IMG/VR virus record: IMGVR_UViG_3300025057_000028
Location: 1-33,410 of that record
Strand: one strand, 5' to 3'
Length of the DNA: 33,410 bases
Origin: a virus
Shown: piece after piece, positions 5,042-28,477 of the stretch
Layout of the letters: every line of letters begins with the position of its first letter
How positions within the stretch are numbered: the stretch's first letter is position 1
The notes under the pieces: generated by a model
The model's input: only the letters and a program-made list of their open reading frames with translations
Told to the model about the DNA's origin: nothing
The model's database searches: none
Translations under genes and position numbers: made by a program

Positions 5042-5665
5042 TCAAAATAAAAGTGTTTGCGTTTCCACGTTGCCGCCTGCGTCGTAGGTTTTGCTCTCGC
5101 CCTTCGGGTAGGGCTGAACATCATACCGTAGCTTCTGGCGCAGCTCTTTCTTTTGCCTCTTGTCACCAACAAAAGTTACATACCTGTGCTTGCGTGGCCT
5201 ATCCACCAAATCAGTGCCCCAATGTCCACGCGAATGTCGTGCTGACTTACCGCCGCTTGTGTCAAACCCCACGGGGTCTTTCCGCTTTGCAGACAAACCC
5301 GTGTAAAGAAAGTTCGTAGCCTGATAGACGTAGCCGATATGCCCCTGCTTTGTGTCAGCGTAGCTCACTATAATCTTTGGTGGGGGCAACAGCTTCATCG
5401 ACCTAGAGACAAGTATAGAGGCTAAGTTCTTTTCGTTGCGCTCCAAGCACAGCCTGTTTAGCTCCAACACATCCAGTGCGTGTTCCTCCCCACAAACACC
5501 ACGCGCAAGATGTGGCGACGCTGGCGCGCCGTATGTGATAACACCAATCAAATTGTTTTCTTCATACAAACCATAGGCAAACATAATTAGAGGCATCCGC
5601 TTCATGTAATGCTTTTGCAGAAACCATTGCCGCGTTTCCTCTGGCTTGATTTGCAAAACCTGCAT
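5042..5665 (-). CDS. Mom-like adenine modification protein (GNAT fold)
   Basis: A 207-residue protein from the ATG at 5665, which has AGGAG seven bases upstream. A longer frame from 5731 runs through a terminator hairpin and is rejected. The motifs YGAPAS (45-50), ELNRLCL (68-74) and SYADTKQGHIGYVYQATNF (101-119) are those of the phage Mu Mom family. Mu Mom has a GNAT-like fold and changes adenine in phage DNA to a methylcarbamoyl derivative that resists many restriction enzymes. Here it would protect replicated DNA before packaging, and it sits directly before the primase-helicase. A terminator hairpin lies immediately before its ribosome binding site, so expression probably depends on read-through. 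I see no clear Com gene beside it. Confidence 0.85.
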   Translation of the reverse strand: MQVLQIKPEETRQWFLQKHYMKRMPLIMFAYGLYEENNLIGVITYGAPASPHLARGVCGEEHALDVLELNRLCLERNEKNLASILVSRSMKLLPPPKIIVSYADTKQGHIGYVYQATNFLYTGLSAKRKDPVGFDTSGGKSARHSRGHWGTDLVDRPRKHRYVTFVGDKRQKKELRQKLRYDVQPYPKGESKTYDAGGNVETQTLLF

Positions 5666-5677
5666 CTCGTTTACTCC
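5663..5677 (-). repeat. Repeated translation-start element, mom copy
   Basis: GGAGTAAACGAGATG, the same 15 bases as 5021-5035. It begins just after the T-run of the terminator at 5680-5729, so the two signals are within a few bases of each other. Confidence 0.85.
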
Positions 5678-5679
5678 TG

Positions 5680-5729
5680 AAAAAATATTGGGGCGTGCCG
5701 CTGAGGGGGAGGGAAGGGCAGCACGCCCC
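5680..5729 (-). terminator. Intrinsic terminator or attenuator before the mom-like gene
   Basis: Reading leftward, a 12-bp stem (GGGGCGTGCTGC pairing with GCGGCACGCCCC, one G-U pair) encloses a 16-base loop and is followed by AATATTTTTTC. The stem pairs fully only in the leftward RNA, because the other strand would have a C-A mismatch. It begins 12 bases after the stop of the SSB-like gene and ends 24 bases before the mom ATG, leaving no room for a normal promoter between. Confidence 0.85.
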
Positions 5730-5741
5730 AACTGACGCTAC

Positions 5742-8257: not shown

Positions 8258-8451
8258 CCGACAAGCTAGACCACCCGAAGTTCCTGCTGCGTGAACCCGC
8301 GCAGCAGGACGACGTTATCTTCAAGGAGATTGATGGCGTTGTGCATATCATCGACTTGGAAAAGCACGGCACCGTCGAAGCCTACTTGCAGCGCATGACC
8401 AAGCCTTCGTTCGACCTGACCGAAGAAGAGGAGGCAGATTTTTATGGTTAA
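8254..8451 (+). CDS. Unknown acidic small protein
   Basis: A 65-residue acidic protein ending SFDLTEEEEADFYG. It overlaps its upstream neighbour by four bases (ATGA) and the recombinase start by eight. A strongly acidic small early phage protein could be a DNA mimic such as an anti-restriction factor, but nothing in the sequence beyond charge supports that. It has no recognised motif. Confidence 0.7.
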   Translation: MTDKLDHPKFLLREPAQQDDVIFKEIDGVVHIIDLEKHGTVEAYLQRMTKPSFDLTEEEEADFYG

Positions 8452-9085
8452 GTACATCGCTTACTATCGCGTGTCGACGAAAGCTCAAGGCCAATCAGGT
8501 CTTGGGCTGGAGGCACAGCAGGCGTTGGTCGCACCATACGCTGACGACATCCTGCACGCATTCACCGAAGTCGAGAGCGGCAAGAATGATGACCGCCCTC
8601 AGCTCGCCGCAGCGTTGGAGCTGTGCCGTGAGCTGGGCGCGTCCATCTTGATTGCCAAGATTGACCGACTGTCACGTGACGCTGCATTCCTGCTGACGTT
8701 GCGTAAGGCCGGGGTCGACATCATCGCTGCTGATATGCCGAACGCTGGCACGCTGGAGTTCGGCGTGCGAGCTGTGGTGGCGCAGCACGAGCGTGAGCAA
8801 ATCTCGCAGCGCACAAAGGCAGCACTGGCCGCTGCCAAACAGCGCGGCGTAAAGTTAGGTTCTCCCAACCCACGCGCTGGCGGTCTTGCCGCTGGCGCGG
8901 TTCGCAGGGCAAAGACGCAAGCCATCGCTGGCAAAGCATTGCCCGTCATCACTGCGCTGCGCGACGCTGGTGCGTCGCTCCGCGCGATTGCCGACGAGCT
9001 GAACAAGCTAGGCATTCAAACAGCTACTGGCAAAAGTTGGTACGCACAGTCCGTCAAAAACATTATGGAGGTATCTCATGCGTGA
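8444..9085 (+). CDS. Small serine recombinase (resolvase/invertase type)
   Basis: A 213-residue site-specific recombinase. The N-terminal catalytic domain has YYRVST with nucleophile S11 and R9, E44-SGK, and KIDRLSRD with R75 and R78. Then come the long helix EREQISQRTKAALAAAKQRG and a C-terminal helix-turn-helix (ASLRAIADELNKLGIQT). The size is that of resolvases and invertases and is far shorter than large serine integrases of 450 residues or more. It may resolve genome multimers, invert a segment or integrate the phage. I could not find inverted or attachment repeats to decide among these. It lies in the middle of the rightward operon. Confidence 0.9.
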   Translation: MVKYIAYYRVSTKAQGQSGLGLEAQQALVAPYADDILHAFTEVESGKNDDRPQLAAALELCRELGASILIAKIDRLSRDAAFLLTLRKAGVDIIAADMPNAGTLEFGVRAVVAQHEREQISQRTKAALAAAKQRGVKLGSPNPRAGGLAAGAVRRAKTQAIAGKALPVITALRDAGASLRAIADELNKLGIQTATGKSWYAQSVKNIMEVSHA

Positions 9086-9212
9086 CGACGACGATTGGAA
9101 ACAAGCGCTTGGCGACATCATCGCCTTGCTTTGTATTTTTGGCGTAGGGTATGTTGCCCTACTGCTTGCACCCGGCATTGAACTTGCCATCATCGACGCG
9201 AAAGGAAATTGA
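9078..9212 (+). CDS. Membrane mini-protein
   Basis: A 44-residue protein overlapping the end of the recombinase gene by eight bases and ending one base before the exonuclease start. GGAGG lies seven bases before the ATG, a strong signal that it is translated. The first 13 residues are acidic and hydrophilic (MRDDDDWKQALGD), followed by one transmembrane segment (IIALLCIFGVGYVALLLAPGI). Its position just before a recombination nuclease and its membrane anchor are notable, but the role is unknown. Confidence 0.75.
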   Translation: MRDDDDWKQALGDIIALLCIFGVGYVALLLAPGIELAIIDAKGN

Positions 9213-9213
9213 A

Positions 9214-10170
9214 ATGGTCGGTAAAGTAACCCCTGATAATATCATTACGGCATCACGTGTGCCTGCACTGCTGAATGCCAGCCCGTATGAAACCCCGAAC
9301 GACGTGCTAAAGAAGTGCATCGACGCAGAGGAGGGCGTGCCCCGCGAAGCGTTCAAGCAGAACGAAGCAATGTTCTGGGGCGACGCGATGGAGCCAACCA
9401 TCCTGCACATCGCATCGCAGCGTCTTGGTCTGTCCGACATCAAGTTCGATTACGACGAGGCGTTCTTTCACGAGAAGCTACCACTGGCCTGCTCGCTGGA
9501 CGGCGCAGGCACAGGCAGCGGTAGTATCAAAACTGATACTAGCAAGGGCATCTACTGCATCACGTCCGATGAGATTGACATCACTGGGCGCGGCGTGCTG
9601 GAGGCGAAGAACACGGGTAGCAAGCCTGAGACAACGCCAGCTCTGTATCGTGGACCACTACAGCTCCAAGCACAGATGATGTGTACGGGCGCGCAATGGG
9701 GTGCCGTGTGTGTGCTGTATGGTGGCAACGAGCTGCGCATCTTTGTTTACGAAGTGCAGCACGACACGCAGGAAATGATTGCTGGTGCCGTTCTTGATTT
9801 TGAAAAGCGCAAAAAAAATTACGACTGGTATCCTGTGTTCTCCAGCGAGGACGGCAACACTGCCTACCCGATGGTCGACGATGCCGTGCCTGAGCTGGAG
9901 ATAAAAGACAATGAGGCGCTGGACTATCTCGCTGACCTAGCCGACGCGCATCGTGATAAGAAGATTGCGGAGAGCCGCATCAACGAAGCGGAGGCTGGGC
10001 TGAAAGAGTTTCTGGGTAGCCACGAAAGCGCCATCGGTATAGTGGGCAACAAGCAGTACCGCGTGAAGTGGCCGATGCGTCAGCGGCGCGCGACAGCAGA
10101 GAAGGTCATACCCGCCAAACCTGCTGAGACGTATCGCCAGAAGACGCTTACGCTGAAGGAGCTGGACTAA
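9214..10170 (+). CDS. YqaJ-type viral recombinase (exonuclease)
   Basis: A 318-residue protein. The start is ATG 9214 with AAGGA before it; the longer frame from 9151 lies inside the preceding mini-gene. The lambda-exonuclease-like active site is visible: E60 in FWGDAMEP, D96 in LACSLDGAG, and E130/K132 in VLEAKNT. A C-terminal region of charged helices (about 230-318) follows. Such enzymes chew one strand from a double-strand end to start annealing recombination, and usually act with a single-strand annealing protein. No annealing partner is recognised here, though the SSB-like protein could serve. It shares an operon with the serine recombinase. Confidence 0.85.
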   Translation: MVGKVTPDNIITASRVPALLNASPYETPNDVLKKCIDAEEGVPREAFKQNEAMFWGDAMEPTILHIASQRLGLSDIKFDYDEAFFHEKLPLACSLDGAGTGSGSIKTDTSKGIYCITSDEIDITGRGVLEAKNTGSKPETTPALYRGPLQLQAQMMCTGAQWGAVCVLYGGNELRIFVYEVQHDTQEMIAGAVLDFEKRKKNYDWYPVFSSEDGNTAYPMVDDAVPELEIKDNEALDYLADLADAHRDKKIAESRINEAEAGLKEFLGSHESAIGIVGNKQYRVKWPMRQRRATAEKVIPAKPAETYRQKTLTLKELD

Positions 10171-26320: not shown

Positions 26321-26356
26321 AAAGAAAAAGGATGGGGATGGCCGAAGCCACCCCCA
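26321..26356 (-). terminator. UUCG-tetraloop terminator after the capsid unit
   Basis: A 10-bp stem, TGGGGGTGGC with GCCATCCCCA, is closed by a TTCG loop (C-UUCG-G, an unusually stable tetraloop) and followed by TCCTTTTTCTTT. It lies between the decoration gene stop and the tail tube A start, with the last Ts overlapping the ribosome binding region of the latter. Confidence 0.9.
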
Positions 26357-26362
26357 GCCAGA

Positions 26363-27483: not shown

Positions 27484-27551
27484 TACGGGTTCCTTTCAGA
27501 AGTGGTTAATACAAAGTTTCGTTACAGGTATCCGTTACCGGGCTGTGACTT

Positions 27552-27570
27552 GGGCGCTCGCGCTGCGCCC
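27552..27570 (-). other. Hairpin in the capsid mRNA leader
   Basis: GGGCGC and GCGCCC form a 6-bp GC-only stem with a 7-base loop, in the middle of the 5' leader that the capsid promoter would give. No T-run follows, so it is not a terminator. It may shield the mRNA 5' region from decay. Confidence 0.5.
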
Positions 27571-27613
27571 CGGAGCGGGTCTTGTCAGGCCAAAAGGTTA
27601 TCCAACAAATCAC

Positions 27614-27642
27614 ATTTTACAGAAAAAGGGCGACACTGTAAA
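27614..27642 (-). promoter_or_regulatory. Capsid promoter overlapping a terminator
   Basis: TTTACA (27642-27637) and TAAAAT (27619-27614) each match five of six positions of the sigma70 consensus, with exactly 17 bases between. The -35 hexamer begins in the loop of the terminator at 27623-27653 and the -10 follows its T-run. Transcription would start near 27607 and give a leader of about 120 bases for the capsid gene. Confidence 0.75.
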
Positions 27643-27653
27643 CAGCGCCGCCC
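27623..27653 (-). terminator. Terminator between scaffold and capsid genes
   Basis: An 11-bp stem (GGGCGGCGCTG with CAGTGTCGCCC, two G-U pairs) with loop TTTA, followed by TTTTT. The stem base lies 24 bases after the scaffold stop codon. It would stop most leftward transcripts that come from the portal genes and isolate the capsid gene, which has a promoter embedded in the same bases. Confidence 0.85.
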
Positions 27654-27676
27654 CGGAGGTTTCACGAACAATCTTA

Positions 27677-28477
27677 TTATACAGGATTGTAGTCGCTATT
27701 TCCATAAGTCTGTTCAAAGAGCTTTTCGACTTTGATGCGGAACGACGGGTCACTGACGTAACGCGGGTCAGCTACCATAGCTTGCAGCTCTTCTTTTGAC
27801 GGTGCACCTTCAGGCTCACCTACATTGACCGGGATAGTTTGGTCGCCGTAGTAGCTGCGGATTTTTTGAAAAGCCTTAATACCCTGAGCTGTGCCGCCCA
27901 TAATCTTAAACTCTTCAAAATCATCCTCGCCCCATACGCCCTTGCGCACTAAGCCCTGTGCCCATTCGGTCATAGACTTTAGTGTTAGGTCGGCGTTCGG
28001 GCCTAGCTTCTTATATTCTTCATCAAAAGAAACTTGCGCCTCAGTCTCTGCTTCGCCAGCAAGTTCAATAAAACTTTTGCCCAGCTCTTCAAAGGCGGCT
28101 TGGCTGATGCCGTTTTCTTTTGCCCAACTTAGATAGGTGGACAACAGAGGGTCATCTGCCTCGATGTTTGCGTCAGAGAATATTTGGTTGTCATACTGCT
28201 CTGGTGCTTTGTGTTTGCCTTGTGAAAACTTTTTCTGAAGTTCGTTATACGACTTCGCCAAGTTTTCAATGTCTGGCCCGTTTTCGTCGCTCCAAAATTT
28301 TTCAGGGAACCAGTCTTCGCGGGTGAACTCGATGTCTTCACCTTCTGCCGCTACCGTAACGTCTTCGACGCTGGGTTGGTTATCCGGCTCAAGATGGGAA
28401 ATCGTTTCTTGCTCCGGCTGCTGGTTATCCTCGCTCTCTACAGAGGCTTGGGCCATCAGGCCTTCGTCTTCACTCAT
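27677..28477 (-). CDS. Scaffold (head assembly) protein
   Basis: A 266-residue acidic protein. Residues 1-55 are a Glu/Asp/Gln-rich disordered arm (ESEDNQQPEQETISH), the middle is helical (YNELQKKFSQGKHKAPEQYD), and the end (KEELQAMVADPRYVS, IKVEKLFEQTYGNSDYNPV) is a helical capsid-binding region. Position between portal and capsid, charge and length fit podovirus scaffolds such as T7 gp9. The start overlaps the previous stop by four bases (ATGA). The stop codon area also contains a TATAAT on this strand, with no independent support as a promoter. Confidence 0.85.
   Translation of the reverse strand: MSEDEGLMAQASVESEDNQQPEQETISHLEPDNQPSVEDVTVAAEGEDIEFTREDWFPEKFWSDENGPDIENLAKSYNELQKKFSQGKHKAPEQYDNQIFSDANIEADDPLLSTYLSWAKENGISQAAFEELGKSFIELAGEAETEAQVSFDEEYKKLGPNADLTLKSMTEWAQGLVRKGVWGEDDFEEFKIMGGTAQGIKAFQKIRSYYGDQTIPVNVGEPEGAPSKEELQAMVADPRYVSDPSFRIKVEKLFEQTYGNSDYNPV

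Follow-up and report, generated by a model that had tools for sequence, protein, structure and literature searches.

A predicted promoter nested in the terminator ahead of a podovirus capsid gene, a recurrent architecture in marine phages, and the structured capsid leader RNA behind it

Can the same 40 or so base pairs stop one transcript and start the next? The question is raised by the segment ahead of the capsid gene in a viral metagenome record of 33,410 bases (IMGVR_UViG_3300025057_000028, positions 1 to 33,410; this whole stretch is termed ‘the window’). An earlier note, made from the sequence alone, had read both a terminator and a promoter out of these bases, and had proposed that the capsid gene and its neighbour form an independent expression island. 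The window is, judged by its sequence, a podovirus, and its capsid protein shares 64.5% identity with the capsid of Methylophilales phage MEP301. No phage RNA polymerase was found among the large ORFs tested in the window, and MEP301 is described as being without one (PMC8024684).

The features of the region are collected in Table 1. Two of the gene labels given previously have had to be loosened: the name ‘scaffold’ for the upstream ORF draws on weak head-assembly matches and on synteny with MEP301 gp32, and is weaker than had been stated, while the ‘decoration’ gene exists as an ORF but matches a function-less family, so that its role is an unproven label. Elsewhere in the window, a Mom-like DNA modification protein (5042-5731, minus strand; phrog_1384, E 2.8e-53) suggests that the phage DNA may be modified, and a serine resolvase/invertase-like gene with a YqaJ-type recombinase behind it (8444-10170, plus strand) lies on the strand opposite to the late genes.

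Table 1. Positions of genes and of predicted RNA and promoter elements in the capsid region of the window
Feature	Position	Strand	Basis and details
Upstream ORF, 266 aa, likely scaffold/capsid assembly protein	27677-28477	-	phrog_1052 head assembly, weak; synteny with MEP301 gp32 ‘capsid assembly protein’
Rho-independent terminator	27623-27654	-	Arms 27643-27654 and 27628-27638, loop TTTA 27639-27642, T5 27623-27627; sequence, folding, covarying arms in relatives
-35 hexamer TTTACA	27637-27642	-	Four bases in loop, two in right arm; register kept in 53 distinct elements, nested in 32
Predicted RNA 3' end of upstream transcript	about 27623-27625	-	Terminator position
-10 hexamer TAAAAT	27614-27619	-	17 nt past the -35; sequence; near-identical relatives (L232 group) read TATAAT
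Predicted capsid mRNA start	27606-27608	-	Position rule from the -10 only; coincides with 5' strand of leader helix P1
Structured capsid leader, about 94 nt	27519-27612	-	Covariance model 76 bits, sole copy in the record; covariation
Leader helix P1	27582-27608	-	Bulged helix, AYAA bulge
Leader H-type pseudoknot	S1 27574-27577/27561-27564; S2 27566-27570/27552-27556	-	
Leader helix P3	27525-27545	-	Mirrored bulge
Major capsid protein gene, 278 aa	26647-27483	-	phrog_3437 major head protein, E 2.6e-51
Small ORF after capsid, 90 aa	26363-26635	-	phrog_18004, no function attached
Second terminator, closing the capsid unit	26326-26361	-	Hairpin core 26333-26356, T5 26330-26326

The element is present exactly as first described: a hairpin followed by T5, and the hexamers of TTTACA-N17-TAAAAT (27642-27614, minus strand), placed such that the -35 falls in the loop and right arm, the T-tract lies inside the spacer and the -10 stands beyond the T-tract. 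On the minus strand the left arm reads GGGGCGGCGCTG (27654-27643) and the right arm CAGTGTCGCCC(T) (27638-27628(27627)), giving a stem of 12 bp with 8 G-C pairs that is directly followed by T5; its fold of -22.2 kcal/mol (z = -5.0) was equalled by none of 200 shuffled sequences. The promoter, whose TTTACA is one base removed from TTGACA, matches 10 of 12 positions of an E. coli-type sigma70 consensus, whose validity for the host is assumed. Promoter-like sites are near chance in the region (18 found, against 15.0 +/- 4.2 expected); just two of the 18 reach 10/12, and one of these two, the nested site, is the strongest terminator-like one on the list. Because such hexamers taken alone occur near the chance level, the case for a nested promoter depends on comparison with relatives. 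A second 10/12 promoter-like site (TGGAAA-17-TATAAT, 27676-27704, minus strand), which overlaps the stop codon of the upstream ORF ahead of the terminator, was not seen among the aligned scaffold-capsid intergenic regions of relatives.

Eighty loci were gathered by a capsid search, and more were added by two DNA pattern scans. Alignment of their scaffold-capsid intergenic regions uncovered a common plan, consisting of a stem arm, TTTACA, the other arm, a T-run and a TATAAT-like hexamer. The 106 loci with a recognizable capsid promoter reduce to 53 distinct elements, 32 of which are nested (defined as a -35 inside a hairpin that folds below -14 kcal/mol and has 9-15 enclosing pairs), and in all 32 the spacer is exactly 17 nt. 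When the arms of 22 dissimilar elements were exchanged, the duplex energy was halved, from -20.7 kcal/mol with their own arms to -10.3 with swapped ones, and none of 20,000 permutations matched the true pairing. The conserved, high-information columns of the nested alignment are the loop hexamer, the T-tract and the -10. Pairing of the stem and the promoter hexamers are thus both kept in relatives, as can be read directly from arms that differ in sequence around a fixed register, and these observations lend support to the earlier proposal that one element may both stop the upstream RNA and start the capsid RNA.

How often would a promoter and a terminator coincide in this way in other DNA? A survey that combined a strict terminator finder with a promoter match of at least 10/12 recovered nested promoters in 0 of 43 terminators in 0.9 Mb of bacterial DNA, and in 20 of 122 terminators in 1.2 Mb of viral loci, of which 19 belonged to this phage family and one (L211) to a cyanophage. 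A scan for the cyanophage pattern (CCC-TTGACA-GGG, a T-run and TANNNT) matched at least 120 stretches, versus 12 for a control with one permuted hexamer, AGTTCA; among the matches listed, these yielded 37 non-redundant TTGACA-loop terminators, versus two for the control. A match of at least 5/6 to TATAAT stood at a spacing of 17 in 19 of those 37 listed terminators (0-4 at other spacings), and 24 of the same 37 are intergenic, with one ORF ending before them and another beginning after them in the same orientation. When the seed pattern was left out, 8 of 120 terminators of the TTGACA loci (again among the matches listed) still had a promoter nested at 17 nt, whereas none of the 76 terminators of other viral loci and none of the 60 of bacterial loci had one. 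Chance overlap of a promoter and a terminator is ruled out by the arm-swap, base-rate and control-hexamer tests.

The cyanophage elements (L412-L530 and L211) are intergenic terminators of many genes, with a loop of exactly TTGACA and a -10 at 17 nt. Two such loci that were tested match Synechococcus and Prochlorococcus phages, and one example stands just ahead of a high-light-inducible gene of the Bellamy type. The promoter-in-terminator architecture is therefore recurrent, being found in unrelated phages, and the cyanophage and capsid-unit elements are probably of independent origin. The earlier note had known of no standard description of such an arrangement; none was found in the literature, within a limited set of open-access papers, but the element is not unique, as many cyanophage sites share its architecture. 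It is made of known parts newly combined, and belongs to a recurrent architecture for which no description was found.

It could still be argued that the element is a terminator and nothing else, with TTTACA representing a favoured loop, the -10-like hexamer a by-product of an A+T-rich tail, and the capsid RNA made by read-through. The arms do covary as they would in any terminator, and the near-chance frequency of promoter-like hexamers across the region as a whole also counts in its favour. However, lineages without the hairpin around the -35 retain TTTACA-17/18-TATANT: in L006 and L042 the terminator is separate and upstream, with TTTACA-18-TATAGT retained; in L230 and L268 an upstream hairpin has a T-run that extends into the -35; and in L009 and L231 a hairpin is located in the spacer. 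The hexamers are therefore not conserved merely as a loop. Furthermore, nested relatives read TTTACA, TTGCGG, TTGCAT or TTTACC in the loop, with the register of T-tract and -10 fixed, and replacements such as TTGCGG and TTGCAT are still -35-like; the cyanophage -10 match is at its maximum at a single distance from the loop hexamer, 17 nt; and the capsid gene would be starved if a strong terminator stood ahead of it with no promoter. Taken together, these points make a terminator acting alone improbable.

Weaker again, and scarcely credible for this element, is the idea of a promoter plus operator in which the inverted repeat is the site of a dimeric repressor or activator rather than a terminator: palindromes that overlap promoters are common operators, and MEP301, L059, L061, L068 and L076 carry one around the -10 without a T-tract, but the arms of the nested elements have no sequence in common from lineage to lineage while remaining paired, which excludes a sequence-specific protein site there, and the T-tract is fixed right behind the stem.

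The strong palindromes around the capsid-promoter -10 in the MEP301 group (in which L082 is also listed) have arms that differ between lineages. Their right arm is also the 5' strand of leader helix P1, such that an RNA reading through from upstream could not fold the leader; an RNase processing site or a switch is possible.

The reading that is retained, in all likelihood the correct one, is that of an intrinsic terminator that carries the -35 of a sigma70-type promoter in its loop and right arm, the T-tract in the 17-nt spacer and the -10 beyond, and that is predicted to stop the scaffold RNA and to start the capsid mRNA. The nested form is absent in some relatives (L006, L009, L036, L042 and L245), and is thus not essential; since some lineages un-nest or move the terminator and yet keep the promoter, termination and initiation signals can be separated. 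Mapped on the capsid tree, nesting requires about four changes, in keeping with a single gain and a few losses within a clade of 48 rows. A second clade (L058 and L063-L067) has TTGCAA or TTGCGT nested at 17 nt within terminators that have longer loops, and because the tree scored these rows as ‘distant’, the number of gains is uncertain.

In operation, a polymerase arriving from the scaffold gene would form the hairpin and U-tract and be released inside the spacer, ahead of reaching the -10 and the start site; a host holoenzyme would then reuse the same bases as a promoter and initiate about 6-8 nt past the -10, near 27607. The first bases of the capsid mRNA would form P1 of a structured leader, and the message would carry the capsid gene and the small ORF and end at the second terminator. 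From the sequence and its conservation, we infer termination, initiation, use of the host polymerase and protection of the promoter from interference. The second terminator (GGCTGGGGGTGGCTTCGGCCATCCCCATCC followed by T5), which had been placed at 26321-26356, is real: 35 of 75 relatives have it after the small ORF as well, +1124 to +1190 relative to the start of the capsid gene, so that the capsid unit is closed on both sides. This conserved downstream terminator, together with a likeness to the layout of T7 and LUZ100, favours the independent expression island proposed at the outset. The best reading of the region is an insulated capsid unit, composed of terminator-promoter, leader, capsid gene, small ORF and conserved terminator, which host RNA polymerase would read.

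What the earlier note missed is the structured leader at the start of the predicted capsid RNA, which is located straight after the -10 in all core relatives. It consists of two permuted copies of a GG-AUAA-CC/GG-CC bulged helix, with an H-type pseudoknot in the core group. A single-sequence fold of the window leader (z +1.4) is uninformative, because the pseudoknot is not modelled in it, and covariation was used instead. In the core alignment of 35 sequences, the 22 pairs are formed in 95.2% of cases, and 14 of them show double changes, as compared with 8.3 in shuffled alignments (0 of 500 as high); slid controls fall to 22-40%. Pseudoknot stem S1 is 99.3% paired, with changes from C-G to U-A and from U-A to C-G, and a nested alternative to it (GCTT/AAGC, pairing columns 43-44 with 73-74) was rejected, as it has no double changes whereas S1 has them. 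In a broader alignment, 12 pairs are formed at 95.6%, with eight doubly changed versus 4.8 when shuffled (0 of 500).

The leader is tied to the capsid gene. Strong matches to the core covariance model lie ahead of a capsid gene wherever enough downstream sequence is available. A scan for the P1 motif, which is independent of the capsid, gave 36 model matches, and 35 of these are directly ahead of a capsid gene (with L532 and L600 read in the right frame, and L600 recognized by its N-terminus only). Many of the capsids behind these leaders were recognized at profile level only, among them diverged ones with HMM E-values of about 1e-45 to 1e-7, and the three diverged ones that were tested are all phrog_3437 major head proteins. 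The 3' end of the leader falls 15-60 nt ahead of the capsid start codon. In several diverged clades it stands behind the upstream ORF and ahead of capsid genes without a visible local promoter (L554, L584, L546 and L545), from which it follows that the leader has a role of its own, and is not part of the terminator-promoter as such.

How far the leader extends was examined with further searches. Model R2, one of two covariance models (R1 and R2) of the leader family, detected no leader when applied to whole records of MEP301 (where P1- and P3-like pieces are visible by eye), SI2, a Vibrio phage, Hodr or HTVC028P. Between the capsids of L584 and pelagiphage HTVC010P, identity is about 70%; R2 found nothing in HTVC010P itself, and weak matches ahead of the capsid in the HTVC010P-type phages Greip, HTVC100P and HTVC203P (E 0.08-0.7). 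Intergenic regions of this type contain a readable P1 motif, GTAAG-ACAA-TT...AA-C-CTTAC, and since the model scores there are weak, the extension to this group is based on position and on the readable motif. Bacterial genomes scanned with the pattern of the P3 motif yielded what appear to be chance matches only. In a further clade (L124, L133, L147, L156, L166, L193, L201 and L204), with capsids 31-36% identical, the P3 motif GAGCAGCCCGAAAGGATACCTGC stands directly ahead of the capsid gene, with no evident P1 and no evident nested terminator. Rfam 15 gave no match at the window leader (E <= 5) and none at the diverged leaders (E <= 1); the weak matches that did appear, such as SorY and L2 leader, fall elsewhere, and assignment to a known RNA family was rejected. 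The leader is an RNA family absent from Rfam 15 and undescribed as far as the literature searched shows.

With regard to function, a tentative preference is given to a cis-acting element that raises or stabilizes the output of capsid mRNA. A less likely alternative is that the leader serves as an operator for the capsid or scaffold protein, with surplus protein settling on the two AUAA-bulged helices and shutting off capsid translation. That the leader is found strictly with major head protein genes belonging to a single family (phrog_3437), that the bulged motif occurs twice, as expected for a dimer, and that the leader ends shortly before the start codon all speak for such control; on the other side, binding is a candidate activity only, and in the window the ribosome site is not visibly covered by the leader, as judged from a thermodynamic fold that is unstable.

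Somewhat more doubtful is a role as an RNA antiterminator of the HK022 put type, which would carry polymerase past the second terminator into the tail genes. In HK022, the putL site comes immediately after PL and forms two stem-loops (PMC9378689), and the window leader similarly begins at the predicted 5' end with two bulged helices, with a terminator about 1.1 kb downstream and tail genes beyond. Against this, the leader is linked to the capsid gene alone with one copy per record, it occurs in the clades without a visible promoter, and the retention of a terminator behind the capsid unit speaks for a benefit of stopping at this point.

The wider picture can be put as follows, and is held to be slightly more likely than not: the promoter-in-terminator is a general insulation device that marine phages have invented more than once (for the capsid units of MEP301-like podoviruses and for many cyanomyovirus genes), and an undescribed RNA of two AUAA-bulged helices, which controls capsid output, opens the capsid mRNA in a wide range of podoviruses that extends as far as the HTVC010P-type pelagiphages. 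Were this correct, stop and start would be packed into the same ~40 bp, and upstream traffic would never cross the start site, which would represent a compact answer to transcriptional interference and one that could be used as a synthetic insulated promoter. Maps of terminators and promoters that are made separately would then miss one regulatory class. The capsid leader, for its part, would place an RNA family new to Rfam 15 and to the literature searched at a high-output gene of abundant marine phage groups.

Each component of the capsid unit has a counterpart in known systems. Like ordinary intrinsic terminators, the element has a G+C hairpin and a T-tract, and like sigma70 promoters it has a -35 and a -10 with a 17-nt spacer; unlike either of these signals in their ordinary form, it shares bases between the two, with the -35 made of terminator loop and right arm and the T-tract lying in the spacer. 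The TTGACA-loop terminators of T4-like phages of Synechococcus and Prochlorococcus are identical to it in architecture, and differ in belonging to unrelated phages and genes, in their perfect TTGACA loop and in being without a capsid leader. The leader resembles HK022 put RNA as a structured RNA just downstream of a promoter with two stem-loops (PMC9378689), a likeness of layout; put sites belong to early operons, are about 70 nt long and are not capsid-linked. Finally, the capsid genes of T7 and LUZ100 are each served by a promoter of their own and immediately followed by a strong terminator (PMC10134795), in agreement with the earlier note as regards the T7 terminator. The capsid unit of the window likewise combines a local promoter with a terminator after the capsid gene (here after the small ORF), but whereas the local promoter of T7 and LUZ100 serves a phage polymerase, the predicted one of the window is of the host type, is nested in the upstream terminator and is followed by a structured leader.
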